A stretch of DNA of 64,000 bases, from positions 5,890,001 through 5,954,000 of the forward strand of contig NC_003076.8 in the NCBI RefSeq assembly GCF_000001735.4, written 5' to 3'. The DNA comes from Arabidopsis thaliana. Its lineage: Eukaryota > Streptophyta > Magnoliopsida > Brassicales > Brassicaceae. A program made the translations under genes and the position numbers. The first letter of the stretch is position 1, and each line of letters opens with the position of its first letter. Of this stretch, positions 9,239-61,619 are shown piece after piece. The notes below the pieces were generated by a model. That model did not search any database and was not told the DNA's origin. It saw nothing but the letters and a program-made list of their open reading frames with translations.

Positions 9239-9252
9239 GTCTTAGCTGATTG

Positions 9253-10932
9253 ATGGGATTTTCATTTTCTTCAAACCGTTTTGGTTACTTGACAGTCACA
9301 TTCCTTCTCGTTATCTCTTGTCTTCTGTTGGGTTTCTTCACGAATCCTGTTGATTCAAGTGCTCTAAGACCTAAATCAGAGCATGATTGTAGTGCCCTGA
9401 AGCACTTTCATGACTACAAATCAAAGTGTGCTTACCTGAAATCGATTGATCCATGTGCTAGTCAAGGTTTCTTCGATTACCTCTCTTTTCTCTACTGTAA
9501 TTTCGAAGGTTTCCCAATTTTGGGTCAGTTTCTTCTCTTCCTCTGGTTGCTTCTCTTGTTCTATCTATTGGGTCATACGGCCTCTGAGTACTTTTGTTCA
9601 TCTCTTGAAAGTCTCTCAAAGCTGCTTAATTTGTCACCAACTGTTGCTGGTGTTACTCTTTTGTCGCTTGGTAATGGTGCTCCTGATTTGTTTGCAAGTT
9701 TGGTCTCTTTCATGGGAGAATCTAAAGGTACTTATGATGTTGGTCTCAACACTGTTGTGGGAGGTTCTGGTTTTGTTACCTGTGTTGTTGTTGGGATCAT
9801 TAGCATTTCGTTGCATAAGAGACGTGTGAGGATTGAGAGAGCTGCGTTTATAAGAGACATTTGCTTCTTCTGTGCTGCTATTGGTTCTTTGGCTTTGATT
9901 TTGGTCTATGGAAAGATCAATTTCTGGGGTGCTCTTGGGTTTTGTTCATTGTATGCTGTTTATGTTGCCTTTGTGGTTCTCTCTTGGAGATTTGGTGGAG
10001 ATCAAGGTGCTGAATCTGATCTTGAGTCAATCCATAAGCGTGGTAGTCTTAGTGAACCAATCTTGCAGAGAGACGGTCTTGAGGAAATTGAAGATGGTGT
10101 TGTTAATGGAGAGCATCAGATTGTTGATGATGATGATGATCACCAGAGATATTATTACTGGAAAAGATTGGTCATTTGGGCTATCACTCTGCCTCTCAAC
10201 TTGCCAAGGATATTAACAATTCCTGTAGTGAGTGAAGACAAATGGTCTAAACCATTAGCTGTTGCCTCGGTCACATTTGCCCCGGTTCTGTTGTCGTTTT
10301 TATGGAACTGGAAGCGGAAACCGACGAGTTTTGAGGCGGGGGTTGTTTATCTCATCGGGTGTTTGATCGGTATAGCTCTTGGTTTCATTGCAGGAGCCAC
10401 GACGAAGAAATTAACCCCACCAAAGAAATGGTTGTTGCCTTGGTTAGCAGGAGGGTTTGTAATGAGCATGACATGGAGTTACATATCAGCACAAGAGCTA
10501 GTTGCGCTTTTGACCTCACTAGGATACATTTTCGGTGTAAGCCCTTCGATCTTAGGCTTAACGGTCCTCGCTTGGGGTAATTCAATTGGAGATCTAATAA
10601 CCAACTTGACAATGGCGCTACACGATGGGAACGAAGGAGCTCAAGTGGCTGTATCGGGATGTTACGCCGGTCCGATCTTCAATACATTGTTTGCTCTCGG
10701 GATATCGCTTGTGGGATGTGCATGGGAGGCTTATCCGTTGAGCATTGTGATTAAGACAGATCCTCGTTTGTTGGAGAGTCTTGGATTTCTGGTCGCAGGA
10801 CTGGTATGGTCGTTCTTGGTTCTGTTTAGTAACCGTATGAGGCTTGGTGGTGTGATGGGCATAGGGCTTTTGGTTATTTACTTGGCTTCATTGTCTCTAA
10901 GAATTATGCAAACCGTTGGAGATGCTCACTAA
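9253..10932 (+). CDS. CCX2: Cation/calcium exchanger CCX2 (CAX8)
   Basis: A single-exon CDS gives 559 aa; the ATG at 9253 is preceded by an in-frame TTG that is not the start. This is a Na+/Ca2+ exchanger-superfamily protein of the CCX branch. It has an N-terminal signal/TM segment, a Cys-containing lumenal loop (DCSALKHFHDYKSKC), an alpha-1 repeat with GNGAPD (residues 140-145), an acidic cytosolic loop containing a DDDDD run, and an alpha-2 repeat with GNSIGD (442-447), with about a dozen hydrophobic segments. The two acidic repeat motifs are the ion-coordinating core of the family. CCX2 is reported as an endomembrane (ER) exchanger affecting Ca2+ and salt tolerance. It lies tail to tail with its paralogue CCX1, 1.7 kb away, which suggests an old inverted duplication. 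There is no sign of damage. Confidence 0.93.
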   Translation: MGFSFSSNRFGYLTVTFLLVISCLLLGFFTNPVDSSALRPKSEHDCSALKHFHDYKSKCAYLKSIDPCASQGFFDYLSFLYCNFEGFPILGQFLLFLWLLLLFYLLGHTASEYFCSSLESLSKLLNLSPTVAGVTLLSLGNGAPDLFASLVSFMGESKGTYDVGLNTVVGGSGFVTCVVVGIISISLHKRRVRIERAAFIRDICFFCAAIGSLALILVYGKINFWGALGFCSLYAVYVAFVVLSWRFGGDQGAESDLESIHKRGSLSEPILQRDGLEEIEDGVVNGEHQIVDDDDDHQRYYYWKRLVIWAITLPLNLPRILTIPVVSEDKWSKPLAVASVTFAPVLLSFLWNWKRKPTSFEAGVVYLIGCLIGIALGFIAGATTKKLTPPKKWLLPWLAGGFVMSMTWSYISAQELVALLTSLGYIFGVSPSILGLTVLAWGNSIGDLITNLTMALHDGNEGAQVAVSGCYAGPIFNTLFALGISLVGCAWEAYPLSIVIKTDPRLLESLGFLVAGLVWSFLVLFSNRMRLGGVMGIGLLVIYLASLSLRIMQTVGDAH

Positions 10933-12637: not shown

Positions 12638-14350
12638 TCACCGGTCGGTATCAAGGACTCCGAAAACTCTAGCCAACCTCAAGGACAAGAAACAGAGGTA
12701 AATAGCGAGTAAGCCCCCACCGACAAGCTTATCAAGTCTCATCTTCTTCTTTGGCATTATCACAAGTGCCCAAAGCAAGCCTACCATTAAGAACCCTAGT
12801 GTCTCAAGCAACGAATTGTCACTAGGAATGATGTAGACCCCGGGGTATTCGGCCAACGAGGAGATGACAAGTGGCACACCTAGTCCAATTACCGTGTTGA
12901 ATAGCGGGCCTGCGTAGCATCCGGAAAGTGCTATCTGAGCACCATCGTTGCCTCCGTGAAACGCCACGGTCACATTCGCGATAAGATCGCCTAGAGAATT
13001 TCCCCAAGCTAGGACGGTTAGTCCTAGCACGGATGGGCTTATACCAAAGATATTACCTAAGGATATTAACAATGAGACTAGCTCTTGTGCTATCATGTAT
13101 GTCCATGTCACACTCATCGTGAAGCCTCCTAGAAGCCAAACTAATGAGAATTTCTTCGGCGGATGTGATTTTTCTGTCGTCAAGTAAGCTAAGATACCGA
13201 CGATTAGCCCGATAGATCCGGATATTATGTACAAGATTAGGTTTCTTTGTGACCCGCTGTAATGAGAACAGTAAAGTTCGGTTAGTAGAACAGGAGCGAT
13301 GGCCGTGGAAACCACAGCGCAAGGCTTTGACCATTTTTCTTCGCAAACGACGGGAATTGTGAGCCGCCTGGGGAGATATAGAGGTAGTCCAATTATGCTC
13401 ACTAGCACCGAGAAGCAAGATCGGTGCCTTTTTGGAGAATCTTCAAACACAATCTTGAATTCTTGAGTTGTTTTCTCTGGCAAAGCCAGCTTCTCCTCTG
13501 CTATATAGCCTAGCAACGAAACACCCATCTCGGCCAAATCTTCTCTGCTACGAAGAATCTGATCGGACATACGTTTCTTGCGGTCAAAGAAATGTGAAAC
13601 CGATAAAAACCCTACATAGAGGAGATAAATGGAGAGATAACAGAGAGCGACCCAAATGGTTACTTTGCCTATGAAGATGATCAAACCGAGACAGCAAAGA
13701 GCGACAAGAAGAAAAACCACGTCGCGGATAAAGCTATTTCTGTCGATAGCGACATCTCTAGATCCAATCAACACACAAATCGTCCCAACAACGAAGCTAG
13801 AGACGAAGAACGCACCGCCTAAAATAGAGTTGAGCCCAAAATCGCCATTATTCGATCTTGTGAAGGAGACAACACTTGAGAACAAATCAGGCGCACCGTT
13901 GCCAAGAGAGAGAAGCGTGACTCCAGCCATTGTAGGAGACAGCTTCAAAACCTTAGATAAGCTGTCTAAAGAAGGACAGAAGTAACTCGCGGCCGTGTCT
14001 CCGAGCAAGTAGAACAGAACAAACAACCAGGCGGATAAAACTAGATGGCCCAAAACAGGGGATTGTCCGAAGATGCAGAAGAAAATCTTGAGATAGTCTA
14101 TGTAACCTTGTGGGCCACATTTTGATTGAGATCTTATGTAAGAACACTTGGAACGGTGGTCGTCAAGGCTGGCGAGTCCTCCGCTGCAGCTGTCACTGTC
14201 ACCGCCGGCAAAGGAATTTAAGGTTTGGATGGATCCGGAGGGAGGAGGAGTTTGTGAAGCGAAATGGAGAAAGATGAGAAAGATGAAGAAGATGTTGATG
14301 AGGAGAGAAAGAGATTGAGAGCCGAGACGTGAGGAGAAGAGACTTGCCAT
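12638..14350 (-). CDS. CCX1: Cation/calcium exchanger CCX1 (CAX7)
   Basis: A single-exon CDS of 570 aa runs from an ATG at 14350 to TGA at 12638. The architecture is the same as CCX2: hydrophobic N-terminus, lumenal Cys loop (CSGGLASLDDHRSKC), alpha-1 repeat with GNGAPD (150-155), a cytosolic loop of about 100 residues, and alpha-2 repeat with GNSLGD (451-456). Long stretches align with CCX2, for example LTIPVV(C/S)E(E/D)KWSKP. It exchanges cations across a membrane; family members move Ca2+, Na+ or K+ against a counter-ion. CCX1 has been linked to Ca2+ and ROS homeostasis in leaf senescence. The central loop differs most from CCX2 and lacks the poly-Asp run. The ATG is preceded by an AT-rich leader with no clear intron. 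Confidence 0.93.
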   Translation of the reverse strand: MASLFSSRLGSQSLSLLINIFFIFLIFLHFASQTPPPSGSIQTLNSFAGGDSDSCSGGLASLDDHRSKCSYIRSQSKCGPQGYIDYLKIFFCIFGQSPVLGHLVLSAWLFVLFYLLGDTAASYFCPSLDSLSKVLKLSPTMAGVTLLSLGNGAPDLFSSVVSFTRSNNGDFGLNSILGGAFFVSSFVVGTICVLIGSRDVAIDRNSFIRDVVFLLVALCCLGLIIFIGKVTIWVALCYLSIYLLYVGFLSVSHFFDRKKRMSDQILRSREDLAEMGVSLLGYIAEEKLALPEKTTQEFKIVFEDSPKRHRSCFSVLVSIIGLPLYLPRRLTIPVVCEEKWSKPCAVVSTAIAPVLLTELYCSHYSGSQRNLILYIISGSIGLIVGILAYLTTEKSHPPKKFSLVWLLGGFTMSVTWTYMIAQELVSLLISLGNIFGISPSVLGLTVLAWGNSLGDLIANVTVAFHGGNDGAQIALSGCYAGPLFNTVIGLGVPLVISSLAEYPGVYIIPSDNSLLETLGFLMVGLLWALVIMPKKKMRLDKLVGGGLLAIYLCFLSLRLARVFGVLDTDR

Positions 14351-17300: not shown

Positions 17301-17816
17301 AATAAATCCTAAAACTCAAACTAATAAAAAAAGTATTTTTTTGTGTAGTATTAAAAGATGCAGAATCCGAAATAATGTATTTTATTGTAGAAGTGATTCA
17401 AAAGACCTTATCTCGTAGTCACTTGTAGCATTATTGGTTTAAGGTTAAAGAAAACATTTAAAACTCTGTATACATCATACATGACATCTTTACAAATTGC
17501 AAAATATACATTTTTAATCAGCTACTCTATTCTTAAATTCCTTTAATTAACGAGGTTATACAGTTCGATACGTTTAAGCAACAAAAAGTTCGATGCCACT
17601 AATAATTTAATTTTTGTTCTCTTCTTATCTTATAGATTGTTGCAGCCTGCAGGCTTGCAGCATAACGAGTTACATAACTATATACAAAGGCCCAATAGAC
17701 ACCTCAAAGGCCCAATAAAAAAGCCCAGGAAAAACGAAAACGAAGATATGAAGTTCTTCTCTAATCCGAAGCAAGAGGCTCAAACTCACTTTCACTTGCA
17801 CAAAGATAAGGAAACC
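14351..17816. other. Long AT-rich intergenic region upstream of CCX1 and PSRP6
   Basis: About 3.4 kb contains no gene that I can support. It includes a (TA)n/(TATG)n microsatellite near 16035-16095 and an open frame of 158 codons from an ATG on the minus strand (16380-16856), discussed in findings. The last few hundred bases are the PSRP6 promoter. Confidence 0.55.
16035..16095. repeat. (TA)n and TGTATGTATG microsatellite
   Basis: A (TA)n tract is followed by two nearly identical copies of a TATATATATGTATGTATGTG unit. This is simple-sequence DNA. Confidence 0.7.
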
Positions 17817-18137
17817 ATGTCTGTGTCAGCGATCTTTGGTACCGGAATCGTCACCGTTGCTGCTTCTCCGGTTCTCCGCCAATTTCAAGTTCCAAAATTG
17901 GGTAATGGAGGAGGATTAGGGATGGTGATAGAGTGTTCGTCGAGGCCACAGAAGAAATCGACGGCTCATCACAGGAAGACGAGGCCGAAGAAGACTCAGC
18001 CTTGGGACATTAAGAGAAAGCCTACTGTTTACGCTCCTCTTCCTCCTCTTCCGGCGGAATGGAGTCCGTTCACTCTCGCTTCTGACGACGGTGGTGCTGC
18101 CACTGCTGCGGGAGATTTGGTTTCAGGCGCTGCCTAG
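17817..18137 (+). CDS. PSRP6: Plastid-specific 50S ribosomal protein 6 (PSRP6, cL38)
   Basis: A single exon gives 106 aa. The frame is open for 60 codons further upstream, but the ATG at 17817 starts the recognised protein ([10 protein letters not shown]...). The N-terminal third looks like a plastid transit peptide, with hydroxylated residues and few acids. The middle is strongly basic ([18 protein letters not shown]) and is followed by a proline-rich [12 protein letters not shown] segment and an Ala/Gly-rich acidic tail. The mature protein is a plant-specific component of the chloroplast large ribosomal subunit with no bacterial counterpart. The nuclear-encoded product must be imported. Confidence 0.9.
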
Positions 18138-18873: not shown

Positions 18874-21800
18874 TCAATGGCTATACATTTCATAAAGCAC
18901 GCATACAGAGTACATCCCGTTGAACCCATTAAACCCTGACACCTTAAAAGCTTAAGTCAAATCATCTGGAGAAATACACAATGAAGATACAAATACAGAG
19001 AGTTCGAAAGAATAAATAGTGTGAAAACAGAGGCAATCTATGAGTTTAACACAAAAGAGTGGAACCAAAACCAGTTTTTTGGGAAGAATGAGCTTCACTT
19101 GGGATGTTAGTGCTAGAGTTTTCAATGTAAGTCTGCCACTGGCCCTTTGGAGATTCATTACCTTTTGCTTGATCCTTGAAACAACCATTAGCACTTGGAG
19201 TTTTGTTGATTTTTACTTTACCTTTTACATCATCATTCCTTGGGGATGGAACTCTGTTCTCTTCAGGTTCAAACACAAAACTGAAACCGGATTTCAAAAC
19301 TTCAAGCGTAGCTTCCCCACCAGTACCAGTTCTCACACTAAACTCAAGGGATGCTTTGGTCGGAGCACATTTAGGACCACCTTGGCCTTTAACAAGTTTT
19401 ATGAAGTCTAAGCAGTTGGTGTAGCCAATAAAGACATGATCTGATTCAACTGTTTCTTCTTGGTTGTCTTGTTCAATCAAACTTCCAACCTTCCAAGTAA
19501 TGCTGCTGGAAGAGCCCTCTCCGTTATTTTGCTCACAAGAGAACTTGACTATCAAGTTGGCATGACTTTTACAGTTCTTGAATGAGACAACAACACATAG
19601 GGCTATCCCAGAAAGCCTATTGTGATTCCAGTGAGGAGGTAATTCAAACTCCACCATAGATCCAATTGCATCGTGACTAAACCATGAAGGCATTTCACAT
19701 CCAGGAAAGCTAGTGCAGAACAAAATCTCAGGAACACAACTCTGCAAAGTTATACAAAGGGGATATACCATTAACCTCAATTCCACTACGCAAAAGAAAA
19801 CTCTCAAGGGAGAGGAATAGAGATACCTCATCGCATCGTTTAAGCGCACTAGCAAGCAAATGACACTTCCTTTCAGCATATACTACAATTTCCTCCTTTG
19901 CAGCTTGTTCCAATTCATTGCAGTTAGTGAAAATGAACGAGGAATTGACATGCTTCATCGGTATAGAACATACCAGCGGTTTTGCAACTGTCTTCAGTGA
20001 GCTACAACCATGAACGTTTAAATACTGAAGATTTGGTGGAAGCTGTGGAACATGTGTAAGATTCTTACAATACTTCAAATGAAGCCATTGAAGTTGAGAA
20101 AATTTATTGAGGAGATCTGGAAGGCGGCTGATCTTTTCATTCTTGTTTAAGCATAAACGACGCACGGAGAGTATCTTCGGCATATCTTTTATAGCTGTCT
20201 CATCCAGAAGCAAGATCTCTAAGCGGCTCATGTTTCCCCAAGTTTCTGGAAACTCATTGAGCTTTGAACAACCAGAGAGGATAAGTTCTTCAAGAGCTTT
20301 CAGCTGACCAAGACTGTCAGGGAGCCTTTTCAGCTTCTTGCAGCCTTTCATGTTCAACATAACAAGTCTTTGGAGTCTCCCAATGTCACAAGGAAGTTCC
20401 TTTATTGCAGTTCCATCCAAGTATAGTGCTTCCAGCTTATCTGAAATAACCTGAAAGGTTTTAAATTTTGAGCAGCCACTGAGGATGAGAGTTTTCAAAG
20501 AGATCAACTGAATCTCTGGAAGAGACTTGAGACTTGTGCATCCTCTCAGGTTCAAGAAAACAAGAAACTTCATATTTTCCATATCCACATGCATCTCTTT
20601 CAATGCCGTGCAACCTTCAAGATTTAGCTCTTGAAGATTTTGAGCTTTTCCTAACCCTGCCAAAGTGTTCAACTTCTTTGAGTGATTTAAGTTTACCCAT
20701 TTTAATTTTGGTGCATCCTGGGGCAATGAACAACAATCATTACAAAGAGTCAGACAACACCCTAAGTTGGACCAATAAAAGAGAAAGCAACTAGTGTATT
20801 GTTACAAACCTTGTTATCTTCCCAAACTCGTTCAATCTCGCTATAAGGAAGCTTAAGGTCAACCAAATTACCCGGGTTGAAATCTTGTGGAACTTCTTTT
20901 AACGGGAATTTCAGCCAGTGGAGATATCGCACCTCATTCAACGGTAGCAGGAGTCCTTCGGGGAAGTTTAATTTAATGTCACTTTCACATTCTTGAGGAC
21001 AATGAGTGCTGTAGATTTTGAGATATCTTAGATCCCTCATCATGGCAAAAGCATGGCGATAGAAGCACCATTTTCTTGTAATATCAGACAAGTCAAGGAA
21101 AATAGACCTGATATTAGAACCTCCCTGTTGACCAATGGCAAATAACAATACAAATTACAAATGAATCTAGACAACCTTGAAAGTATCATGCATATCATCT
21201 ATGCAAGAAGGTAAGTCAATGTAAGCTGATAAAATCACATTTTCAAAACGTGAATAACTGGTGTGATCATTCATTGTATTGGATCCTATAGGTCATGGTT
21301 TCACTAAAGAAACTGTAAATATAAAAGCAAACATATGTTAAAAAACAAACAGTTTTAGTGTTACCTTGTTTTTGTCCAGCACAGCAATTATGGTGTGATG
21401 GTGCCACAACCTATGCCGCCCCTTTCTATCTGTAGCAGTAGCTTCTCGACCAAGTTCCTTGGAGAGCATATACAATGTATCATGCATATCTACTTTGCCA
21501 GCATAAATATTAATCATGAACTTGTTCACGAGATCTTCCAATATATTACTAGGGCCATCTGAATCCAATAAACTCGCTACGTAATTCTCATCTTGCGACC
21601 TGAAGCAAGCTATGTCAAGAAGTGCATCTTTTTCTTTTTGACTCAGTGCTTTATAACTCCCTTCCCAGACCCTTTGAAGCATCTTGCAAATGCTTTGTCC
21701 AGGTGGACTGTTATGGTGTTGATCCAATGCATTTAGTTTTAAGCCCCAGTGACTCTCATCTTTCCCCAAAAGCTCCTTACCCAACATCTGGAGAGCTAGT

Positions 21801-23096
21801 GGATTTCCTTTAGTATAATGCACGAAATCTTTCGACAACTTGGGGAAATTTCCTTGCCCGGGGCCGGGAGCAGCTCCTTCGTTACCATCAAATGCGTAAC
21901 GTATAAAATGTTTTATGGCATCTTTGTCGCTTAATGGAGGGACTTCGTAAGTATCATTGACCAAACTTTGTATCATCAATGACTTGTCGCTTGTAGTAAT
22001 GAGAATCTTGCTTCCTTTCTTAATCCAGTTGCGTTCGCCAAGAAGAGCATCAACTTGGTCCTTGTTACTGACATTGTCAAGAATAACAAGGACTTTGGTC
22101 TCGAGTAACTGATCTTTGTAAGCTTCATGAGCAGCTTGTACGGACTCGATGTTGGCATTCTCAACTTTCAATAAACCTTGCAAGAATTTCGTGGCCAAGT
22201 AATTTAACCCGTCTTCCTCTGAAGCTTCATGGATATCACGGATTAACACGTGTCTCAGGAATCTATCATTCCACTTCTCATATAGCATCGTAGCGAGAGT
22301 GGTTTTACCTATACCGGGCATCCCAACAACACCGATGGTACGAGTTGTTTCGTCCGACCCAAAACGTAACTTTTCTTCTAGTTGCTTAATTCGGAGCTCG
22401 ATTCCCCAAAAGGTTTCATGACGTTTCTGGTGTCTTTGGGGCGGTAGTGCAGAACATTTAGAAGGAGGACCCTCTGAACGTCTATTTAGTATTTCTTTAA
22501 CCTTTCGGATAATTATATTGATGACTTCGTCCTCATCGCTGCTAACACTAATTGAGTGAGATGACATAATCATAGCTTTTTATAGATCAATAAGTAATAG
22601 AAGGAGTTGTTTACCTTTTCTCATCCAACACGATGCCGGTTAAAAATGGAACATATTGTAAAGCTTCCTTCCATTCTTTCTTCGTCTTCTTGTCAGTAGA
22701 CTTCACCAGCTCCCTGAACTTATCCCCGAAGTCTCCCTTCAATTCTTTAACAGTGACGGGCTGTACCTTGTAGAAGATTGGAATCACCACGAGCTCCTTT
22801 TGTTCCGTTCTTTCTTTCATCTTCGCAAGCTCCTTCAAACACCATTTTGACTCCGTGTACCTTGGAGAGAAAATGGCTAGCGCGATCCTCGAACCTTCTA
22901 TTCTTTCGAGCAGAACACTCAACTCTTGGCCCATCTCTTCATCTGTGTCTATGAAGGCATTGATCCCTTTCCTTTTTAAGCCCTTCTCCAGATGACTGAC
23001 GAAGTTCTTGCGCAGTTCGACTCCACGGAAATTAATGAACACTTGATCTTGGGGTGTCTCACCGTCCGTTTTCACCCAGGAGGAGGAGCTTGTCAT
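18874..23096 (-). CDS. CSA1: TIR-NB-LRR immune receptor CSA1, executor partner of CHS3
   Basis: Six exons: 22615-23096, 21365-22538 (an alternative acceptor gives 22547), 20810-21124, 19827-20717, 19072-19741 and 18874-18935. They total 1197 aa and all phases agree. The TIR domain (about 15-160) has the motif [11 protein letters not shown] with the presumed NADase Glu at residue 89. NB-ARC has the P-loop GMPGIGKTT (233-241), the Walker B-like LVILDN and an intact MHD in VDMHDTLY. LRRs with the plant TNL spacing (LEGC, LRGC, LSGC, MKGC units) follow. The C-terminal region [18 protein letters not shown] is a C-JID-like domain. CSA1 is a nucleotide-switch immune receptor. It works with CHS3, and it is reported to guard BIR3/BAK1 status and to be needed for CHS3-driven autoimmunity. 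The gene is divergent from CHS3. The last exon encodes only about 20 residues across a 136-base intron. Confidence 0.95.
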
Positions 23097-26000
23097 TTCT
23101 ATCTGGCTTTAGTGCTCTCAAAACTGAAAGACTCGAAATTAGCCTCTGTTCTGCCATCGACTTTAGGACTATCTCAAAGGATAAGTCAATGGAACTTTCA
23201 AATTCAATAACTAATTTTTTCTGTATCAAAAGAACAAAAAAGATTTTAAATGAAATATTGATAACAAAGTAATAGTTCATGGTATTACAAGTAACTATTA
23301 TGGATGGTAGTATGCTAATTACAAATCTTTTAACACTCAAGTTTTTAGTAAACAATACAGTATTATTATAGTTCTAATCTTTTAGTGGCTATTTTTTTTT
23401 TTCTTTTCCGAAAACGGATGAATAGTGAGACAGAAGACAATTTCATTACTCATAATAGAAAACAACTCGGGATAGGATAAATAATTCTCAAATTTTTGTT
23501 AATCTCCTTCTACGATCCGAGAGACCGAGACCAATCTTTGTTAATACTTTATGACATGGCGTAAAACATTGTTTTTACCGAAAAATTAAACTAGAGAACA
23601 CATGGATGCAACCTACTTAAACCATTAACCAAATACGTGGTTAAAAATTCTTAAACTTTCTTTATAAATTCAGTCTAAGTAAAATAACATATTTAATTTT
23701 GAATAAAATAATTGGTTCACTCGGGTATACAGAATAGTACACAAAAACTGTAAGAAAAGTTAAGAATAACGTTTTAAATATTACATTTGTGATTAGTAAT
23801 TGTTAAAGCATTACCTCATATAGCAGCACAACGATACATAATTATCATTTTTGACCAGCATTAACTATGCAAATACGACCGCACATCTATAAAGAAAAAA
23901 AGTATATACGACAACGCTCTATCGAATATAGTGTACAAATTAAACTGGGTGGTTCACCTAACCTAGCTAGTTGAATATATTTTAAATTGTGTGTAATGGT
24001 TGTGTTCACCTAACCAAACTATGAACAATTCGATGGTTATATATTTTATTCATACACATAGATTTTAGTCTATAGATGCTGTATTTTTTTTATTTTTATT
24101 TTTTTCCATTCATATTATGATCACTAAATGACACTATTTCTCTCTTCTTTGTATATACTAGATATGGTTTTAACTTTTTGATTAAGATATTAACAAATTT
24201 GGATTTCTTCAATATAATTAGTAATTATATTATATATAATATTAAAATCATCTAATAGTATGATATACTAATTTGGTTTCACAATATTTGATGTTGTAGG
24301 TTTTTCATACAAATTAAAAAAAGGAGAAATTTTACATTTTTTAATTAATATTTTGTTTGTTTAATAATATCAATTCTACTTCTTTCTTCTCTATTAGTCA
24401 TGAATAAAAATAATAATAATATTGATTCAAAAAATCAATCTCTGTGGAATAAGAAAAAAACCCACATCATTAATCTTTGTAGAAGAGAAAAAGTATTTCA
24501 TTATTATATTCATAAATATACATGATATATTATTGAAAATTGTACTACATTTCTCTTCTTTAGGTTTTGTGAAAAACCCTCAAAATAGCCAATATATATA
24601 AAAGCATCTCCAATGCATACTTTTCTTTTTTCTATATTTTAGAAACAACTCTATTTTAGAAGAAATATAATTAATGTTGCTGCAATGTATTTTTTAAAAA
24701 TAGAGTTTCCTCTAAAATAAAAAAAATGGAAATTACTTTATATATAAAGTAAAAAGTAAAAACTAAGAGTTATTTATTTTAAAGAAAATTCTATTTTACA
24801 GTTATACATTAAAAAAAATATCTTTAAAATAGAAAAAAATAAAAGTGCACATTAGAGATGCTATTAAAATAGACGTATGTAAATCTCGTGGACGATTCCG
24901 TGCATCATTGACTTTACCAACCCATTTGTGCTCTACCTAGGGAAGAAATCTATTTAACGATTGGTAATTTGGTATCACTACCATTTATTATTAGGTCCAC
25001 CCGTTACTATTTCTACAATTTGGTCCCCTCGTCTCATCTTTATAGGCCCTCCACCAATTAATGCCCTCGGACGTTTCTTTGATTCTTAATGACTATAAAC
25101 TCGCCTTTGGAATTTTCAAAATCTTTAAGTGAACAAAACATCTGTCATACGCAAGTGGATGCTGGAATTGTGATAAAGTATGGTTTAGTCAGAAATCAAA
25201 ATTAATACACAACAACTGTAGATGCTACCACGGGCCACGGCTAATCCTACAACTCCAAAATCCAATATAAGTCGTCGAACTTTAATAGCAAATTTTTATG
25301 TCATCGAACCAATAACGAGATTAGCTACAAGATTATACAACGTCAAAATACTTCAATCCCTTTAATTTTTGAGGTGAATCTTGCTATTTTTGTTTGTAAA
25401 ATTTTGTTATATATGTAACTGATGCCATACATGCATTGACTAGTTTTAAGGGATGCAAAATTCTATAGAAATGGTTGCGGTTTGTCACGACCCTTTTGTT
25501 GGGATGTATCATGACAGTTGCGTGGCTTCCGCTGGGCCATTTCACTGGAGCAGGTGAATGTGCTTTAGTGAAGGGCATGGATGACTCAGGTTGGAGGAAT
25601 TATTTTGGAGTTAGACAGAACAATTTGGGTAGAGTTTGAGTCTTTATTACTAATTGAGGATCAAACACAGATGAGGAGATTAGGCCATTCCTGCACAAAC
25701 TGGTCGTGATTTAAAGTCAATCACCTAATAAGCTCAAAGCAGGACAAAACTAGTTGGAGATGGTCGATGGTAGAAAAGTTGGTCGGATAATATTGAGATT
25801 GTCGACCGATGCACGATCTTTTGAAAACAAGCCCATGACAGATTGCTGTAAAAAAATGATGGTTGAATAGGAAGATGTAAAATTACTAAAATAGAGACAA
25901 TACAAATGATTTACAAAAAAACATCAAAACTAATCTGTAAAGAAAAAAACACACACACCAAAATTATATTTTTCTTTTAAGCACCAAGAATCCGACATAA

Positions 26001-27014
26001 GTTTTTGTTTGTCTATTAGTTTATTATATGTAGTTTATTAGTTTATTATTTAGATAAAAAATTATTCCTTAAAAAAAAAACCATAAAAACGGGATTGTTA
26101 CCGTATAACGAAATTACAAAATCTAGATGTGGTTCCAAGTTCTAACCATTAGGTTCAACATCCCAAAGATCAGTTGATAGACTGGTGATTCCACTAGAAA
26201 AGTTGACAAAAGGGGCAATTGGTAGAAACAATAGAGACTTTAACTCGGTTTTTTTCAAATGTTCAAAGTTTGATTTAATTATTCAACCACTTTTTTTTAA
26301 AAAAAAATCTAATAATGAAAACCTTCTGTTTTTTTTTTTAAAGTCAATCCCCAATATTATCTATGTTAATATTTTTGAAATACATATTTGTTGTTTTAAT
26401 TGAGTCGTTTTCTAATTTTTGCACCTAAACATTCAATCGAATCTTTTCTTAAAGTTCGATAATATATGAAAACAAATTAAACTTCAATATTAATATATAA
26501 GACGATATACCGCAGAAAAAATATTAAAACTAACAATCAAAAAATTATATAATTTAAACACAAAATAAAACAATACAACGTAAAATTTAAAAAATTTAGT
26601 AACCCAAACTCGAATCTTTTAGTAGTATTAAAAGAATTACACATATTTTTCTCACCAAAATTATCTTTTAATTTTTTAATTATATTCTACTTATTACCAA
26701 CTATAATTATTTCCAAGTAGTCGTTAGTAAGTTACTTACTTATTAGTTATTACATGTTTTGATTATTCTAATTTTAATTGTCAAACACATTAGAATATTT
26801 TTAAACTCTAGAAATATTATTTTAAACACTTTAGTTTTGAATTTTACCATTGCATTTGAACAACTTGTTTCAATATTATTAAATAAGAAATCTCAAATAT
26901 TAATATACGAAAAGGAGAGAAAATAAAATAGTATTGGCATATTCTGGGAAACCTTCAATTTCTTTTTGTGTGTTAAGAATAGATAGATGAGAGTGATGAT
27001 TTGGAGAAAGAGAG
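23097..27014. promoter_or_regulatory. Shared 3.9 kb region between divergent CSA1 and CHS3
   Basis: The two ATGs point away from each other (23096 minus, 27015 plus). The interval is AT-rich. It carries several TTGAC W-box cores (for example near 23851, 24908 and 26201) and a MITE-like element at 24603-24862. No intervening gene was found; short frames at 25384-25578 and 26185-26403 have no domain. Such divergent arrangements are typical of paired NLRs and would allow joint expression, though 3.9 kb is long for one shared promoter. Confidence 0.6.
24603..24862. mobile_element. MITE-like inverted-repeat element in the CSA1-CHS3 interval
   Basis: The left end AGCATCTCCAATGCATACTT and the inverted right end AGCATCTCTAATGTGCACTT match at 16 of 20 positions, and the match extends into T-rich DNA. 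The 260-base interior is AT-rich, has no coding capacity, and contains further self-complementary TCTATTTTAGA-type words, so it can fold back. Target-site duplications are not clear, so the superfamily is unassigned. GCATCTCCAATG ends are common on short non-autonomous DNA elements in Brassicaceae. Confidence 0.65.
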
Positions 27015-30000
27015 ATGGAACCACCAGCTGCTCGTGTAACGCCGTCGATTAAGGCCGACTGTAGTCACAGCGTCAACATCATCTGCGAGGAAACAGTACT
27101 GCACTCCCTTGTCAGCCACCTCTCGGCCGCTTTACGCCGGGAAGGCATATCTGTGTTTGTGGATGCGTGCGGATTGCAGGAAACCAAGTTCTTCTCCATT
27201 AAACAGAATCAGCCGTTGACAGATGGGGCTAGGGTTTTGGTGGTGGTTATTTCCGACGAGGTGGAGTTCTACGATCCTTGGTTTCCTAAGTTCTTAAAGG
27301 TTATCCAGGGTTGGCAAAACAACGGCCACGTGGTGGTTCCAGTCTTCTACGGCGTCGATTCGTTGACCCGAGTTTACGGGTGGGCCAATAGTTGGCTGGA
27401 GGCCGAAAAATTAACCAGCCACCAATCAAAGTTCGTATACATTATACTTTTTTCTTTTGTCAAAAACAAGTAAATGTACTAATCATATAAACCGCTAGAC
27501 TTATATCATATGTGTATATATAATTAGGCAATCAAATTTTGAATAATCCAAGTGAAACTCAGATAATTTTGGAGTTATGTGATGAACTAAAGACACCTTT
27601 ACATTTTCATTGCTGGAATTGTTGTTAAGAGATTACTTTGTGTATATGCATTGATTTGAAATTTTTTTGGTTAAATTTTTAGTTTGTTGTTCAATTAAAA
27701 GACTTTAGTTGAAATAAAACATATTTGAAGTGATTGTTGAATAATAGAGGGTAGTTGTTTTTCCTTTCTTGGGCAGGATCTTAAGCAATAATGTACTCAC
27801 GGACTCCGAACTAGTGGAAGAGATCGTCAGAGATGTTTATGGGAAGCTTTATCCTGCAGAACGAGTTGGAATTTACGCGAGGCTACTAGAGATAGAAAAG
27901 TTGCTTTACAAGCAACATAGGGACATCCGAAGCATAGGAATTTGGGGTATGCCTGGCATAGGCAAGACGACGCTTGCTAAAGCAGTCTTTAATCACATGT
28001 CCACTGATTATGATGCTTCTTGCTTCATCGAGAACTTTGATGAAGCTTTTCATAAGGAGGGACTCCACCGTTTGCTCAAAGAAAGAATTGGTAAAATTCT
28101 AAAGGATGAGTTTGACATAGAAAGTTCGTATATTATGAGACCGACCCTCCATAGGGACAAATTATACGATAAAAGGATTCTTGTTGTTTTAGATGATGTG
28201 CGCGATTCCCTTGCTGCAGAGTCCTTCCTTAAAAGGCTTGATTGGTTTGGTTCCGGAAGCCTTATAATCATAACCTCCGTTGATAAACAAGTGTTTGCCT
28301 TTTGTCAGATCAATCAAATATACACGGTTCAAGGTTTAAATGTGCACGAGGCTCTGCAGCTTTTCTCCCAAAGCGTATTTGGAATAAACGAGCCAGAGCA
28401 GAATGACAGGAAACTGTCAATGAAGGTGATTGACTATGTTAATGGAAACCCGTTAGCTCTCAGCATTTACGGCCGAGAGCTAATGGGGAAGAAGTCAGAA
28501 ATGGAGACTGCATTCTTCGAGCTCAAGCATTGTCCTCCCTTAAAGATTCAGGATGTGCTAAAAAACGCTTATAGTGCACTTAGCGACAATGAGAAGAACA
28601 TTGTTTTGGACATTGCTTTTTTCTTCAAGGGAGAAACTGTCAATTATGTGATGCAGCTGCTTGAGGAATCTCATTACTTTCCACGTCTTGCAATAGATGT
28701 TCTTGTGGACAAGTGTGTGTTAACTATCTCAGAAAACACAGTGCAAATGAATAATTTGATCCAAGACACCTGCCAAGAAATCTTCAATGGAGAAATTGAG
28801 ACCTGCACCAGAATGTGGGAACCTTCCAGAATCAGATATCTGCTAGAATATGATGAACTTGAAGGAAGTGGAGAAACCAAAGCAATGCCTAAATCTGGTC
28901 TGGTCTGTCAAATTCTACTATATGCATTACCTGAGTTGTTCTATTAAGGCGAGCCTAACTTATTGATCTATCAATTTCTCTTGTTCTCTCAGGTCGCTGA
29001 ACACATCGAAAGCATATTCCTGGACACTTCAAACGTGAAATTTGATGTCAAACACGATGCATTCAAGAATATGTTTAATCTCAAATTCCTAAAGATATAC
29101 AATTCATGCTCTAAATATATTTCTGGACTCAATTTTCCAAAGGGCCTCGATTCTCTGCCTTATGAGCTAAGGCTCCTCCACTGGGAGAACTACCCTTTGC
29201 AATCCTTGCCTCAAGATTTTGACTTTGGACACCTTGTTAAGCTCAGTATGCCTTACAGCCAGCTTCATAAACTCGGGACAAGAGTCAAGGTAGGCTGACT
29301 AAGTCTGGGTATTTATCTGCAACTTCGCTTATAACATTACTGTTTCATTCATTTTCAATTTTTTATATTTTCAGGACCTTGTGATGTTAAAGAGGCTCAT
29401 TCTTTCTCATTCTTTACAGCTAGTTGAATGTGACATACTAATATATGCTCAAAATATCGAGCTAATTGATCTTCAAGGCTGTACAGGATTGCAAAGATTT
29501 CCAGACACGAGTCAATTACAGAATCTCCGGGTAGTAAATCTCTCAGGTTGCACAGAGATCAAATGTTTCTCAGGGGTTCCACCAAATATTGAGGAATTAC
29601 ATCTCCAAGGAACTCGTATAAGGGAAATACCAATATTCAATGCGACCCATCCCCCCAAGGTTAAGCTGGACCGGAAAAAGCTTTGGAATCTTCTAGAAAA
29701 CTTCTCGGATGTTGAGCATATCGATTTGGAGTGTGTAACAAATCTAGCTACAGTTACCTCAAATAATCATGTTATGGGCAAGCTTGTCTGCTTGAATATG
29801 AAATATTGTTCCAATTTGCGAGGCCTTCCTGACATGGTCAGTTTAGAATCTCTCAAAGTTCTTTATCTGTCGGGCTGTTCAGAGCTTGAGAAAATTATGG
29901 GTTTCCCGAGAAACTTGAAAAAACTATATGTTGGTGGAACCGCCATACGAGAATTGCCACAGCTTCCCAACAGTCTAGAATTCCTGAATGCTCATGGTTG

Positions 30001-33000
30001 TAAGCATCTGAAGTCAATTAATTTGGATTTTGAGCAGCTTCCTAGGCACTTCATCTTCAGTAATTGTTATAGATTTTCTTCACAAGTGATCGCTGAGTTC
30101 GTAGAGAAAGGTCTTGTAGCAAGTTTAGCAAGAGCAAAACAAGAGGTTTTTTACCTTTCTCTCGCTCTCTATCGCACGTTCATTTATTCTCATGCACACA
30201 GCACACAGGTTAACTAATTAATTTTGGCCTTTGCTTGAACAGGAACTCATCAAAGCACCTGAAGTCATCATCTGTATTCCTATGGACACACGGCAGAGAT
30301 CCTCCTTTCGCTTGCAAGCAGGTCGAAATGCAATGACAGACTTAGTTCCGTGGATGCAAAAACCTATCTCAGGCTTTTCTATGTCAGTTGTAGTATCATT
30401 TCAAGATGATTACCACAATGATGTAGGTCTTCGCATTAGGTGTGTAGGTACATGGAAGACCTGGAACAACCAGCCTGATAGAATAGTTGAGAGATTTTTT
30501 CAATGTTGGGCTCCTACCGAAGCTCCAAAAGTTGTAGCGGATCACATTTTTGTCTTGTATGATACCAAAATGCATCCTAGTGATAGTGAAGAAAACCACA
30601 TCAGTATGTGGGCTCATGAAGTCAAATTTGAATTCCACACAGTGAGTGGGGAAAACAATCCTCTAGGTGCTAGTTGCAAGGTGACTGAATGTGGTGTCGA
30701 GGTAATTACAGCTGCAACAGGTGATACTAGTGTTAGTGGAATTATAAGAGAAAGTGAAACTATAACTATTATCGAGAAGGAGGATACTATTATTGATGAG
30801 GAGGATACTCCTCTTTTGTCCAGAAAGCCAGAGGAAACGAATCGTTCTCGTTCATCTAGCGAATTACAGAAGCTTTCTAGTACGTCAAGTAAGGTAAGAT
30901 CTAAGGGAAATGTGTTTTGGAAGTGGTTAGGTTGTTTTCCCCTGCAGCCAAAAAACTTGAGATCTAGAAGTAGGCGCACAACAGCGTTAGAAGAAGCGTT
31001 AGAAGAAGCATTAAAAGAAAGAGAAAAATTAGAGGACACCAGAGAGTTACAAATAGCATTAATAGAGTCAAAGAAGATAAAAAAAATAAAGCAAGCAGAC
31101 GAAAGGGATCAAATAAAGCACGCAGACGAAAGGGAACAAAGAAAGCATTCCAAAGATCATGAGGAAGAAGAAATAGAGTCAAATGAGAAAGAAGAAAGAA
31201 GGCATTCCAAAGATTATGTGATAGAAGAATTAGTGTTAAAGGGGAAAGGTAAAAGAAAGCAACTGGATGATGATAAAGCCGACGAAAAGGAACAAATAAA
31301 GCATTCCAAAGATCATGTGGAAGAAGAAGTGAATCCTCCTCTTAGGTAACGCTTTTATGTGCTTCTGTAAGTGTGTATAAGGAATTCTTGGATTTTACGT
31401 TTACTTGCTCAGATCATATCTATTTTACTTGTAGCAAATGCAAGGATTGCAAATCTGCAATTGAAGATGGAATATCTATCAATGCCTACGGTTCTGTTTG
31501 GCATCCTCAATGTTTCTGTTGCCTTCGTTGTCGGGAGCCTATTGCTATGAACGAGGTTTTTAACCATATAAATACCAGCTTGAAATTGATTGCTACTTTA
31601 ATGTGATTACTGCTTGACTCTTGTACATTTTGTTTTCTGATGCAAAACATATATAACTCGTTAGATTTCAGACTTAAGAGGAATGTATCACAAACCTTGC
31701 TACAAGGAGCTCCGTCATCCGAATTGCTATGTCTGCGAAAAAAAGGTAAGTATATTCTCATGAGTTGGGTTTTGGACAATGAAACTACAAAAGAATTGGT
31801 CGTAGTGTATGTAAAATGTAATAGTATATTATTTCTTTCAGATTCCTCGTACTGCGGAAGGTTTAAAGTACCATGAGCATCCGTTCTGGATGGAAACATA
31901 CTGCCCTTCTCATGATGGTGATGGAACTCCCAAATGTTGTAGCTGTGAAAGATTAGAGGTCCTTAATTATAGTTCTTTGACTAGATTAGATGAATATTGA
32001 AACAGAGAAACCTTCTGGTTTGACTTGTTATAGTTCTGTGCAGCATTGCGGAACACAGTATGTAATGCTTGCAGATTTTCGATGGCTATGTCGAGAATGT
32101 ATGGACAGCGCGATTATGGATTCTGATGAATGCCAACCTTTGCACTTTGAAATCCGTGAATTCTTTGAGGGCTTACACATGAAGATTGAGGAAGAATTTC
32201 CTGTTTATTTGGTGGAGAAAAATGCTCTGAATAAAGCTGAGAAGGAAGAGAAGATTGTGAGTACATTTCCCAAACTAAAACTTCCTGATTTCTCTATCTC
32301 TCTCTCTCACTCTCTTCGTATGTCTCAGGACAAACAGGGGGATCAGTGTCTGATGGTAGTCAGAGGTATTTGCCTATCTGAAGAGCAGATTGTCACAAGT
32401 GTAAGACATTAACTAAGATCAAAATGATACTTAAAAAGATTGAAAATAGAATGGATTTTAACTCTATTCCACGTATACAGGTCTCACAAGGAGTAAGGAG
32501 GATGTTGAATAAGCAGATACTAGATACGGTTACAGAGTCTCAAAGGGTTGTTCGCAAGTGCGAGGTCACTGCAATTCTCATCTTATATGGGCTTCCTAGG
32601 TACTCTACCTCATCATCTTCTTTCTAAATACTCTCTTGCGCCAACTGGCTCAATCAAATCTATGTTCACACAGGTTACTCACAGGATATATCTTGGCCCA
32701 TGAGATGATGCATGCTTATCTTAGACTCAATGGTATGTAAGAGTCAAATATGTAATACTCCATTTGTACCCCCATTTGAGGAGAGTTCTCAAAGTCCTTT
32801 GGTTTGATCACAGGTTACAGGAATCTTAACATGGTTCTTGAAGAAGGATTATGCCAAGTGTTAGGCTACATGTGGTTGGAGTGTCAGACATACGTTTTTG
32901 ATACTGCCACAATAGCTTCTTCTTCTTCTTCTTCCCGCACTCCTCTATCTACAACCACATCAAAGAAAGTTGACCCATCTGATTTTGAGAAGAGGCTGGT

Positions 33001-33160
33001 AAATTTCTGCAAGCATCAGATAGAAACAGATGAGTCACCATTCTTCGGTGACGGGTTCAGGAAAGTTAACAAAATGATGGCCTCAAATAATCACAGCCTT
33101 AAGGATACCCTGAAAGAGATCATCAGCATTTCCAAGACTCCACAATATTCAAAGTTATGA
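27015..33160 (+). CDS. CHS3: TIR-NB-LRR-LIM-DA1 receptor CHS3 (DAR4), sensor with integrated domain
   Basis: Thirteen exons: 27015-27430, 27777-28902, 28993-29289, 29375-30145, 30243-31345, 31435-31555, 31665-31745, 31842-31958, 32044-32256, 32329-32400, 32481-32599, 32674-32732 and 32814-33160. All phases agree and give 1613 aa. Domains in order: a degenerate TIR (about 15-135); NB-ARC with P-loop GMPGIGKTT (196-204) and LVVLDD but MNN where MHD is expected; LRRs (LQGC, LSGC, YLSGC); a C-JID-like region; a charged repeat region with a UIM-like ELQIALIES; a LIM domain (CKDC...[10 protein letters not shown]) from about 1238; a second LIM-like zinc segment; and a DA1-type peptidase with HEMMH at 1488-1492 and downstream LEEGLCQ. 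The LIM-peptidase part is an integrated domain related to the DA1 growth regulators. Residue 1340 is Cys, the wild-type state at the site of the reported gain-of-function chs3-2D change. CHS3 needs CSA1 for signalling. Confidence 0.95.
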
Positions 33161-33655
33161 TAGCCAGCCATATGTTATACCAGTAATGCACGTTTTCATT
33201 CTTTGGTGTGAACACAGTTTCTTCTTGCTCTATTGCTCTTGTTCTCATGTTTTAAGAGTTTCTCCTTCGTTTTGCAGCCATAGAAACTTTAAACAATCTT
33301 GCCTGTTGTACAAATGTATTTTTCGCTGGAATGAATTCTTGCTGTGATAAAACTGAAGGATTCCTTAGCTCTTGATCCACTTCTAGCGTCGTATCACAAA
33401 AGCACATTAGGTATTATTGTTATTTGAATGTATCATTGTTGGAGGTATATAGAGTGGCTCAAGTCTCCCAAATATAACGAAGCTAAAATGTTTGTTATAG
33501 TGCTTTTAGTATTGGAATATCTTTATCTCTGTTCAACATTTACACTATACAGTTATCACCGATAATAATATTTGACTGTTTCAATCGCATTGATTCTACA
33601 CTTCAAATTCACTGTTTTTCATAGCTTCCACTTCCACCCTTCCACCATTTGTGCT
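33161..33655 (+). other. 3' flank of CHS3
   Basis: This probably contains the CHS3 3' UTR. No further coding exon is visible after the TGA at 33158. AT-rich DNA continues to the repeat element at about 33660. Confidence 0.5.
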
Positions 33656-58998: not shown

Positions 58999-61619
58999 TT
59001 ATATGTCCACGATCTCTATACTTGCAGGCAAATATGGTAATGTTTTAAGGTTCTTACATCCCGCCATCTCCAATGAGACAAGCCGAGAACATAACTTGAT
59101 TACTGAAGGCACTTTCTCTATCGCAGTTTCGCCTAGAGACATGAACTGAATCTGCGTTGAAATCAAAGGAAAGTTATTCAGCTTCGAGCATCCTCTCATA
59201 TTAAGGACACTGAGGGATTTCAAGTTGATGTTGTCTGGCAGACTCTTCAGTTTTATGCAACAAGACATGTCCAAGACTTTGAGCTTATGAAGATTCTGTA
59301 GACAAGACGAAGGAACTATGACCAAATTTTTGCAGAACCTAAGATACAACTTCTCCAGATTTGTTGCTCTTGATAGGTTTGGAATATCTTTAATCTTTGT
59401 GGATGCACTCAGATCCATACGCTTGAGGCTTTTCAGTGGCTGAGAACATAGATAGCAAAACAATATGTATAAATAGAAAGGCATTTTATAAGAGGAGACC
59501 AAGAATTAAGATATATAATAAGAAGCTACCTGAATACCTTCCCAGAGCTTCTCCAGCTTGCTATCTCTCATAGTAAGTTCCACAAGAAATTCGGGTCGAA
59601 ACTTAGAAGGCAAACATTTTTTCGGATACGAATCCCAATGTAGTAATCTAAGTTTACGTGGTAGATAATCCAAACCGTGAGGTAAGTACAACTTGACTGC
59701 TTCATCTGGGAAATTCTTGTATAGCCACAAGAATTGGAGATTAGGCATTTTCTCAAAGGCTTTTTCACTTACATACACTTGATCTTCAATTTCAGACATA
59801 TCTAATGATATTCCTAAAACAGTTTCTGTACCCTGCAAATGTACCACAATTAAGAAAGAAGGCAATTAGTTAGCTAAAAGTGGATTTTGTGATGAGTAGG
59901 ACTTGGATGGAAAGCATGTCTCAAAAAGCTTACGGTTTCATCTGCAAGAACATCTGAAATCTCCAAAGAATCAACTAGAAACTTACGTTTCCCGGGCTCG
60001 TCGAGACACTGTCCCCGAGTGATTTCTTTACCCAATTGTTGTAGCAAACAATGCATGACTATATATCCATCAGCATCTATGTGTATAAGAGATCTGTCAA
60101 CAAGAACTTTAAGTCCAAATTCTACATCCAATGCACTCTTAGCAAGCAACAGCTTCACACGATCAACATTCTTGCCATTGAATAAGCACGCGATATGAAG
60201 AAAGATAGCCTTATCTTTCTCATCTAACCCTTCATAACATACTCTTAGTAGTTTCTCTATTTTCCCATTCAAACTAGTTCTAAGTCGCGGTAGAGCGTTT
60301 ATCCACTCTTTCTTACTCATCCCTCGCAAAGATGCACCTAAAACGCTGAGACCTAAAGGAAGATATCCTGCAAGTTCCACAACTTCAACAGCTAGATCAT
60401 TGTATCCTTCTGGTGCCGAGTTTTTTCCGAAAGCACATTGACACAAGATCTTTAAGGCTTCATCTCTAGATGGATAATCCACTTCATATACATGAGTAAT
60501 CCCATGAGCCTTCAAAAGCTGTCTATCTTCTGTAGTAACTAAAATTCTGGTTCCATTACCAACCCATTGAGTTTGATCTGCCAAGGCACGTAGTTGTTCC
60601 AGTTCATCAACATCATCAAGAACAATAAGAGCTTTCTGATTCTTTAGCCTTTCTTGTGCTACACCTAAATGGCTTACCTTTATCTTTCTTTGGGTGGTAA
60701 TTTCAGAGAGAAACCTTTCTCGTAAATGCAACTTCATGCTATAACCATCGATTTCCTTTCTCCTATAGCTTCCCTTAACATTCTCCATGAAAATGAACAA
60801 TTGAAAGTCGTCATCATTAGATGAAGAAAGTTGATTGTATAAAATCCTCGTGATAGTGGTCTTCCCTATTCCAGCAGGACCCCAAACACCTATCATCTTC
60901 ACTTCATTAGACTCTAGACCTAACATTGATTTCAAATTTGCAACATGAGCTTCCAATCCAAGTAAATCTTCGAAATCCGTCGAAGAAGTGAAGCAAAATA
61001 GCTCTTCAGAAACATAAGCAACGATCTTTTCAATCATTTTGGCGTCATTGTCCCTGCAACAATTGAAACAAACGAACGAATACACATGATTCAATTTAAA
61101 ACCTTCATAAAAACGTTTGAATATTAGTGAAACTACTAACCATTTCGAAGAGCACTCGCCGGCAATATTACCAACATTCGTCAAAGCTTGCCTCCATCTC
61201 TGCCTCTCTTCCTCTGTTCTCACATCACAAATCTTGTCAAAAGCCTTTCCAAAATCTCCAGTCTGTTTTCTTACACTAGATGGATCCACATCATAGAAAA
61301 TCGGCACCAATGTCTTCCCAACAACTTCCCTGCACTCCATGATCTCGACCAATTCGTCTAAGCACCAGCACGAACCAGCGTAGTTCTTGGAAAGAACAAC
61401 AATGAAAATCTTTGATTCCCATATAGCTTGTTTAAGCTCAGGCCATATGGAACGACTTCTCTTGATTCCACCATCTTTAAATGCATCAATTCCATTATGT
61501 TGCAGCTCCTTGTGTAAATGACTTAGAAAGTTTCTACGTACATCTTCCCCGCAGAAGCTAGGGAACACATGATAACTATGGCGATCAGAAAAAGAAGACG
61601 AGGACGAAACAGAAGCCAT
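58999..61619 (-). CDS. TIR-NB-LRR disease resistance protein with short LRR
   Basis: Exons 61141-61619, 59934-61053, 59530-59832 and 58999-59439 give 780 aa (probably AT5G17970). The TIR (about 15-150) has SKNYAGSCWCLDEL with the catalytic Glu at 89, so NADase activity is possible. NB-ARC has the P-loop GPAGIGKTT (218-226), LIVLDDVDEL, the RNBS-type GNGTRILVTTEDRQLL and IVMHCLLQQLG at the MHD position. The LRR region has one entry module (LRLLHWDSYPKKCLPSKF) and about five to six repeats (MDLSAST, LYLRFC, LDMSCC, LNMRGC, LEMAGC) before TAA. Typical TNLs are 1000-1200 aa, so the LRR is short and the C-JID is missing. The target is unknown. Intron 1 (87 nt) is open and frame-preserving. The gene lies near an NLR relic with the same ARC sequence type. 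Confidence 0.88.

Follow-up and report, generated by a model that had tools for sequence, protein, structure and literature searches.

The CSA1/CHS3 pair of immune receptor genes in Arabidopsis thaliana, and where a LIM-DA1 segment seems to have joined its sensor

We analyzed a stretch of 64,000 nucleotides from chromosome 5 of Arabidopsis thaliana (positions 5890001-5954000; hereafter, the window) that contains two divergent and intact TIR-NLR genes, CSA1 on the minus strand and CHS3 (also known as DAR4) on the plus strand. With a probability of about 0.88, we believe that this locus is the CSA1/CHS3 paired receptor in its clade-1, integrated-domain form and that it works by a sensor/executor mechanism in which the two proteins rest as a heterodimer. 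An earlier note on this DNA had described such a divergent pair, with a LIM domain and a DA1-type peptidase on CHS3 only, and had identified it as a known pair that is one clade of a wider family. The note read the locus correctly: the pair is real, and it is already known. The same pair, its tail, its allele clades, and its signalling have been published (PMC6709784, PMC11298796, and PMC4350097; here and below, papers are cited from excerpts of their text). What we add is small. Within one genome, we compare the catalytic glutamate and the MHD motif between genes of the sensor type and of the executor type, and we offer a map of the fusion, which places the join at 30742-31238, together with evidence that the tail was captured as genomic DNA with its introns. 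This map is a minor addition, and no literature search was aimed at it. CSA1/CHS3 serves as a model locus for those plant immune receptors that come in pairs and carry an integrated domain, and the map could guide the choice of boundaries for domain swaps. Coordinates are those of the window unless a chromosome is given.

The coding region of CSA1 is at 19046-23096 (minus strand, stop codon included) and has five exons (23096-22615, 22538-21365, 21124-20810, 20717-19827, and 19741-19046). The coding region of CHS3 is at 27015-33160 (plus strand) and has 13 exons (27015-27430, 27777-28902, 28993-29289, 29375-30145, 30243-31345, 31435-31555, 31665-31745, 31842-31958, 32044-32256, 32329-32400, 32481-32599, 32674-32732, and 32814-33160). 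All of the introns are GT-AG (4 of 4 in CSA1 and 12 of 12 in CHS3), and the models encode 1185 and 1613 amino acids, respectively, with zero internal stops. The earlier note had said that a frame break in either NLR would overturn its reading; we looked for one, and neither model has it. Exon edges in both genes were set by hand, with the expected reference proteins as a guide. The CHS3 model equals what we take to be the reference length (1613 amino acids), and this agreement is therefore a weak and non-independent check. Published residues give a better one: C1340 of CHS3, which is changed in chs3-2D, and G233 of CSA1, where G233E is a suppressor allele (PMC4350097), both have the correct letter at that position, as does K862 of CSA1. 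For the first intron of CSA1, we listed 18 in-frame combinations, and the chosen one is among them. Two nearby alternatives, of 1186 and 1188 amino acids, are excluded by K862; G233 alone is also compatible with 1188. The earlier note began the pair at 18874, which falls past the stop codon of CSA1 and is presumably in its untranslated region. We took the gene names from the literature and named other loci according to their coordinates.

As the earlier note had proposed, this is a sensor/executor layout with an integrated domain: the catalytic glutamate of the TIR domain and the MHD motif are both kept in CSA1 and both lost in CHS3. In the exon frames of CSA1, Pfam finds TIR (1.8e-40), NB-ARC (2.4e-19), LRR, and C-JID (6.8e-11), but neither LIM nor DA1-like, even with E allowed up to 1. 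The nearest solved structure to its TIR domain is RPS4 (4c6t_B, 7.7e-51). The glutamate is E89 (in WCLKEL; 22830-22832, minus strand), and a conserved catalytic residue in this TIR is also stated by PMC11298796. The P-loop of CSA1 (GMPGIGKTT, residues 233-241) is at 22298-22324 on the minus strand and includes the site of the published suppressor allele.

In the whole CHS3 protein, Pfam finds NB-ARC (7.8e-21), WHD_ROQ1 (6.5e-15), and LRR, followed in the same frame by LIM (residues 1240-1292, 1.6e-8) and DA1-like (residues 1387-1602, 1.2e-88); CSA1 has neither of the latter two. The TIR exon of CHS3 (27015-27430, plus strand) is degenerate. Its Pfam match is 0.001 in the whole protein, which is under the Pfam cut-off, and 1.8e-4 in the exon alone, which is just over it. 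The position of the catalytic glutamate reads as F93 in one alignment and as K in another, and so as E in neither. The nearest solved structure is 4c6t_A (7.7e-11), which was deposited as probable WRKY transcription factor 52 and which we take to be the TIR of RRS1. The P-loop of CHS3 has the same letters as that of CSA1 (residues 196-204; 27946-27972, plus strand), and the protein has MNN in place of MHD (QMNN begins at residue 462). When we compared the tail to PDB, there were 19 sequences at E up to 0.01, and every match was inside the LIM part; therefore, no solved relative of DA1 was detected by sequence.

To see these motifs in other genes of this type, consider the best matches to each half of the pair across the genome (119.66 Mb in 7 contigs). 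On the executor side, we took the 12 best loci of 101 listed matches to the NB-ARC exon of CSA1, and on the sensor side, the 8 best loci of 109 listed matches to the corresponding exon of CHS3, with the query included in each case; the labels of executor side and sensor side were assigned by us from search rank. The glutamate was read from the CSA1-based alignment or, at loci that this one did not cover, from the CHS3-based one, and the reading moves by one column with the query used. It is E in all 9 readable TIRs from the 12 executor-side loci, as compared to 2 of the 7 readable TIRs from the 8 sensor-side loci (a sensor on chromosome 3 and another at 10.64 Mb of chromosome 4). The other five, CHS3 included, do not have E. 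Of the 12 executor-side loci, 11 have an intact MHD and the remaining one has MND; none of the 8 sensor-side loci has it intact. All 20 loci retain the P-loop (GxxGIGK). The aspartate of MHD by itself is absent from all 8 sensor-side NB-ARCs and is kept in all 12 executor-side loci, in one of them as MND. In this small set, sensors are marked off more cleanly by the missing aspartate than by the missing TIR glutamate (5 of 7 readable).

Judged by TIR structures and by NB-ARC search rank, CSA1 falls with the executors of other pairs and CHS3 with their sensors. All seven of the nearest relatives of the CHS3 NB-ARC have a divergent CSA1-type NB-ARC exon (again by search rank) within about 10 kb, although for three of these, the partner is 7.7-9.1 kb away and other genes may intervene. 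These divergent partners fit the family of TNL pairs that is mentioned in PMC4350097 and PMC6709784. PMC4350097 names RPS4 and RRS1 as the closest homologs of CSA1 and CHS3. In our searches, the NB-ARC exon of CSA1 is nearer to the executor on chromosome 3 (50% identity, 333 bits) than to RPS4 (45%, 248 bits), and for the NB-ARC exon of CHS3, the sensor at 17.10 Mb of chromosome 4 (60%, 435.5 bits) and RRS1 (61%, 426.7 bits) are about equally close. For the TIR exon of CSA1, RPS4 ranks first among the loci that we fetched. The difference from the published ranking depends on which domain is compared.

How is the tail joined to the receptor? The protein match of CHS3 exon 5 to six other sensor loci stops at residue 163-167 of 367, and its DNA match, to four of those six loci, reaches 30741 at the furthest. 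These matches mark 30243-30741 (plus strand) as a post-LRR part that is common to other paired sensors. The captured DAR segment, at 31239-33160 on the same strand, comprises a charged linker, LIM, a LIM-like part, and the DA1-like peptidase, with their introns included (as judged from Pfam, DNA alignment, and intron positions). Between these is a repeat-rich junction zone of 497 bp (30742-31238, plus strand), which lies inside exon 5 and whose DNA matches neither parent at E of 1e-4; four tandem-repeat arrays lie within it or overlap it. The DAR-like DNA begins abruptly at 31239, and allele clades without a tail exist (PMC6709784), as might be expected if the LIM-DA1 exons formed a gene of their own, immediately downstream of an ordinary sensor NLR. 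But the join sits within one open exon (30243-31345) that passes from NLR-type into DAR-type sequence, intron 5 has GT-AG ends and preserves the phase, and chs3-2D, which is numbered as residue 1340 from the start of CHS3, fits our model and needs CSA1 (PMC4350097). So we consider a separate gene to be extremely improbable. Exon 5 stays in a single frame as its post-LRR part gives way to the DAR-type linker; as far as the sequence can show, the LIM-DA1 exons belong to CHS3, as the earlier note had them.

Because the tail consists of DAR-like DNA with its introns, we conclude that it was captured as genomic DNA. The match to a cluster of DAR genes at 26.586-26.602 Mb of chromosome 5 spans 31239-33182, continues through the introns, and has 67-73% identity in stretches of over 300 bp. 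For seven tail introns and seven relatives, we found a gap of 47-283 nucleotides at the same place in 47 of 49 cases (exon ends were extrapolated for this test, so splice dinucleotides are absent near some edges). The two exceptions are in the fourth gene of the cluster (after exon 11) and in a gene on chromosome 1 (after exon 10). The intron directly before LIM is common to CHS3 and the fourth cluster gene, as judged by comparing the sequences by eye. We also considered whether the tail arose by retro-insertion of a spliced copy, and we rejected this, as the introns are shared with the DAR relatives.

The DA1-like identities and a tree from FastTree do not single out any one donor gene. In the DA1-like part, protein identity is highest to the second cluster gene: CHS3 is identical to it at 174 of 254 columns, to the first at 152 of 239, to the third at 153 of 255, and to the fourth at 152 of 256. 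Outside of the cluster, the counts are 137 of 225 for a gene on chromosome 4, 112 of 207 for the chromosome 1 gene, and 116 of 217 for a gene on chromosome 2, so the chromosome 4 gene is about as near to CHS3 as two of the cluster genes are. FastTree places CHS3 between the cluster and the group from chromosomes 1, 2, and 4, and not inside the cluster (support of 0.46; the rows of this tree are composites of ungapped pieces, and some are visibly misjoined). On the other hand, the long DNA matches to the cluster, across introns and linker, favor an origin from the cluster. The longest DNA match of the linker is to the fourth cluster gene. Another set of linker alignments was made with no correction for composition, and since the sequence is of low complexity, their E-values are inflated. 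The fourth cluster gene, in its present state, is ruled out as the donor, as it does not have the intron after exon 11. This gene, at 26.601 Mb, lacks an intron between YGLPR and LLTG, which CHS3 and the six other relatives have. We take it to be DAR3. A 2023 study by Gu, on the LIM-peptidase tail and the inhibitors of DA1 peptidases, reportedly proposed that the tail is a decoy for DAR3, a DA1 peptidase inhibitor; if our naming is right, the linker match would agree with that proposal. A 2022 study by Yang is said to concern allele variation.

We can now sketch how the pair would work. CHS3 would be the sensor, having lost the catalytic glutamate and the intact MHD motif and having captured a LIM-DA1 segment that would serve as bait, and CSA1, with its TIR glutamate and MHD intact, would be the executor. 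At rest, the two would form an inactive heterodimer that both the integrated domain and the receptor kinases BAK1/BIR keep in check. If either BAK1/BIR or the integrated domain is disturbed, the heterodimers would pair up and the NADase sites of CSA1 would open, which would lead to immunity and cell death that depend on EDS1/SAG101. The autoimmunity of chs3-2D requires CSA1, SAG101, and EDS1-90; it depends partly on SGT1b and marginally on PAD4 (PMC4350097). Hetero-oligomers and restraint by BAK1/BIR were shown for clades 2 and 3 (PMC11298796); we infer the same oligomer for the clade-1 allele, as we do what exactly the tail would sense. There are CHS3 alleles with and without the LIM and DA1-like integrated domains, and this division is mirrored by CSA1 (PMC6709784). 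Since PMC11298796 gives the BAK1/BIR mode for every clade, whether or not it has the tail, the pair might mainly guard BAK1/BIR and the tail might be incidental. We think that this is very improbable, because a point mutation beside the LIM domain is autoactive (PMC4350097), because a separate tail-mediated mode is named in PMC11298796, and because there are positively selected sites in DA1-like integrated domains (PMC6709784, in a passage that does not single out CHS3).

A further question is whether the tail is an active peptidase rather than mere bait, so that the sensor would cleave its partners or itself upon engaging ubiquitin or an effector. The zinc-peptidase motif is complete: HEMMH is at residues 1488-1492 (32699-32713, plus strand) and is followed, after 15 residues, by EE (32840-32845), and HEMMHX15EE is the zinc peptidase site of DA1, which is active (PMC5322733). 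In LIM and the LIM-like stretch together, a loose pattern, [CHD]xx[CHD], is matched 7 times. DA1 and four other family members have N-terminal UIMs (ubiquitin-interacting motifs; PMC5322733), and in CHS3 there is a UIM-like LQIALIES in the junction zone (31047-31070, residues 1139-1146), which we found with a loose hand-written pattern that also matches at residue 1364, within the tail. However, Pfam finds no UIM in the CHS3 linker, and a bait copy could retain the motifs by descent alone. Also, the chs3-2D type of change in DA1 (C274Y) abolishes its activity toward BB (PMC5322733), while in CHS3 the equivalent change activates immunity (PMC4350097), which is a better fit to the loss of a restraint than to gained catalysis. 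We infer that the intact tail restrains the receptor, and an active peptidase seems unlikely to us. The fuller version, in which the tail would be a working, ubiquitin-responsive LIM-peptidase that was captured with the remnant of a UIM in its linker and whose catalysis would help to determine how the pair behaves at rest, we consider decidedly unlikely.

Returning to the heterodimer of a bait-bearing sensor and its executor, several points weigh against it or against our models. Loss of the glutamate does not define sensors, given that this residue is still present in 2 of the 7 sensor-side TIRs that could be read. Our model of CSA1 (1185 amino acids) is 12 short of the 1197 that we take to be the reference length. 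The earlier note had claimed that the exon phases reproduce the known lengths, and against these presumed lengths, our models agree for CHS3, non-independently, and differ for CSA1. K862 is in exon 4 of our model of CSA1 and is in the third exon according to PMC9204091. For the clade-1 pair, oligomerization was negative, and the excerpt of PMC11298796 gives this as "not shown." Finally, the interval between the two start codons (23097-27014) is 3918 bp, which agrees with the 3.9 kb in PMC4350097 and far exceeds the gaps that we measured at three other pairs (254, 296, and 357 bp; for the 296-bp case, the start of the sensor is uncertain). So a shared promoter should not be assumed. The interval is AT-rich and has dispersed repeats, which may partly explain its length. 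These repeats (near 24287-24540, 24590-24866, and 26477-26600) have matches of 64-85% elsewhere in the genome, and the repeat at 24590-24866, which has matches on both strands and inverted repeats, resembles an old miniature inverted-repeat transposable element.

Other genes in the window lie outside of the pair. There is a third TIR-NLR, with an open frame of 581 amino acids at 59874-61619 (minus strand), in which Pfam finds TIR (2.7e-52), NB-ARC (7.7e-23), and WHD_ROQ1, and which was also found by both of the NB-ARC searches. Two genes of the sodium/calcium exchanger family face each other at 9250-10932 (plus strand) and 12638-14350 (minus strand), with Pfam matches of 6.3e-51 and 1.7e-55. 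A small DUF5323 protein (17814-18134, plus strand; 2.5e-36) converges on the 3' end of CSA1, and the coding ends are about 0.9 kb apart.

How does the locus compare to known systems? The tail resembles the DA1/DAR family, which is represented in the genome by at least 7 further DA1-like loci, in its LIM, LIM-like, and DA1-like parts and in its shared introns. It differs in that the CHS3 segment is fused behind a TIR-NLR and in that its UIM is at most a remnant, as compared to the N-terminal UIMs of DA1 (PMC5322733). HEMMH is present in 6 of the 7 other loci, and the chromosome 2 gene has HELMH. We presume that DAR5 is in the 26.6-Mb cluster, in which case its fusion is distinct from that of CHS3. 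DAR5 is also an NLR that bears LIM and DA1-like domains, but it is of the RPW8 type, and the excerpt of PMC9528084 lists no executor for it. The RPS4/RRS1 pair is alike in being a divergent TIR-NLR pair whose sensor has a C-terminal integrated domain, and its two TIRs are the nearest solved structures to those of CSA1 and CHS3. RRS1, like CHS3, is without the catalytic glutamate (as we read it and as given in PMC11298796). It has WRKY instead of LIM-DA1 (PMC4350097), and the gap between RPS4 and RRS1 is 254 bp by our count (264 bp in PMC4350097), as compared to 3918 bp. The closest system is the published CSA1 (At5g17880) and CHS3 = DAR4 (At5g17890) of clade 1. Aside from the 12 amino acids by which CSA1 falls short of its presumed reference length and the exon count for K862, nothing firm differs. 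The order, the orientation, the domains, the 3.9-kb gap, C1340, G233, and K862 all agree, and it is the same locus.

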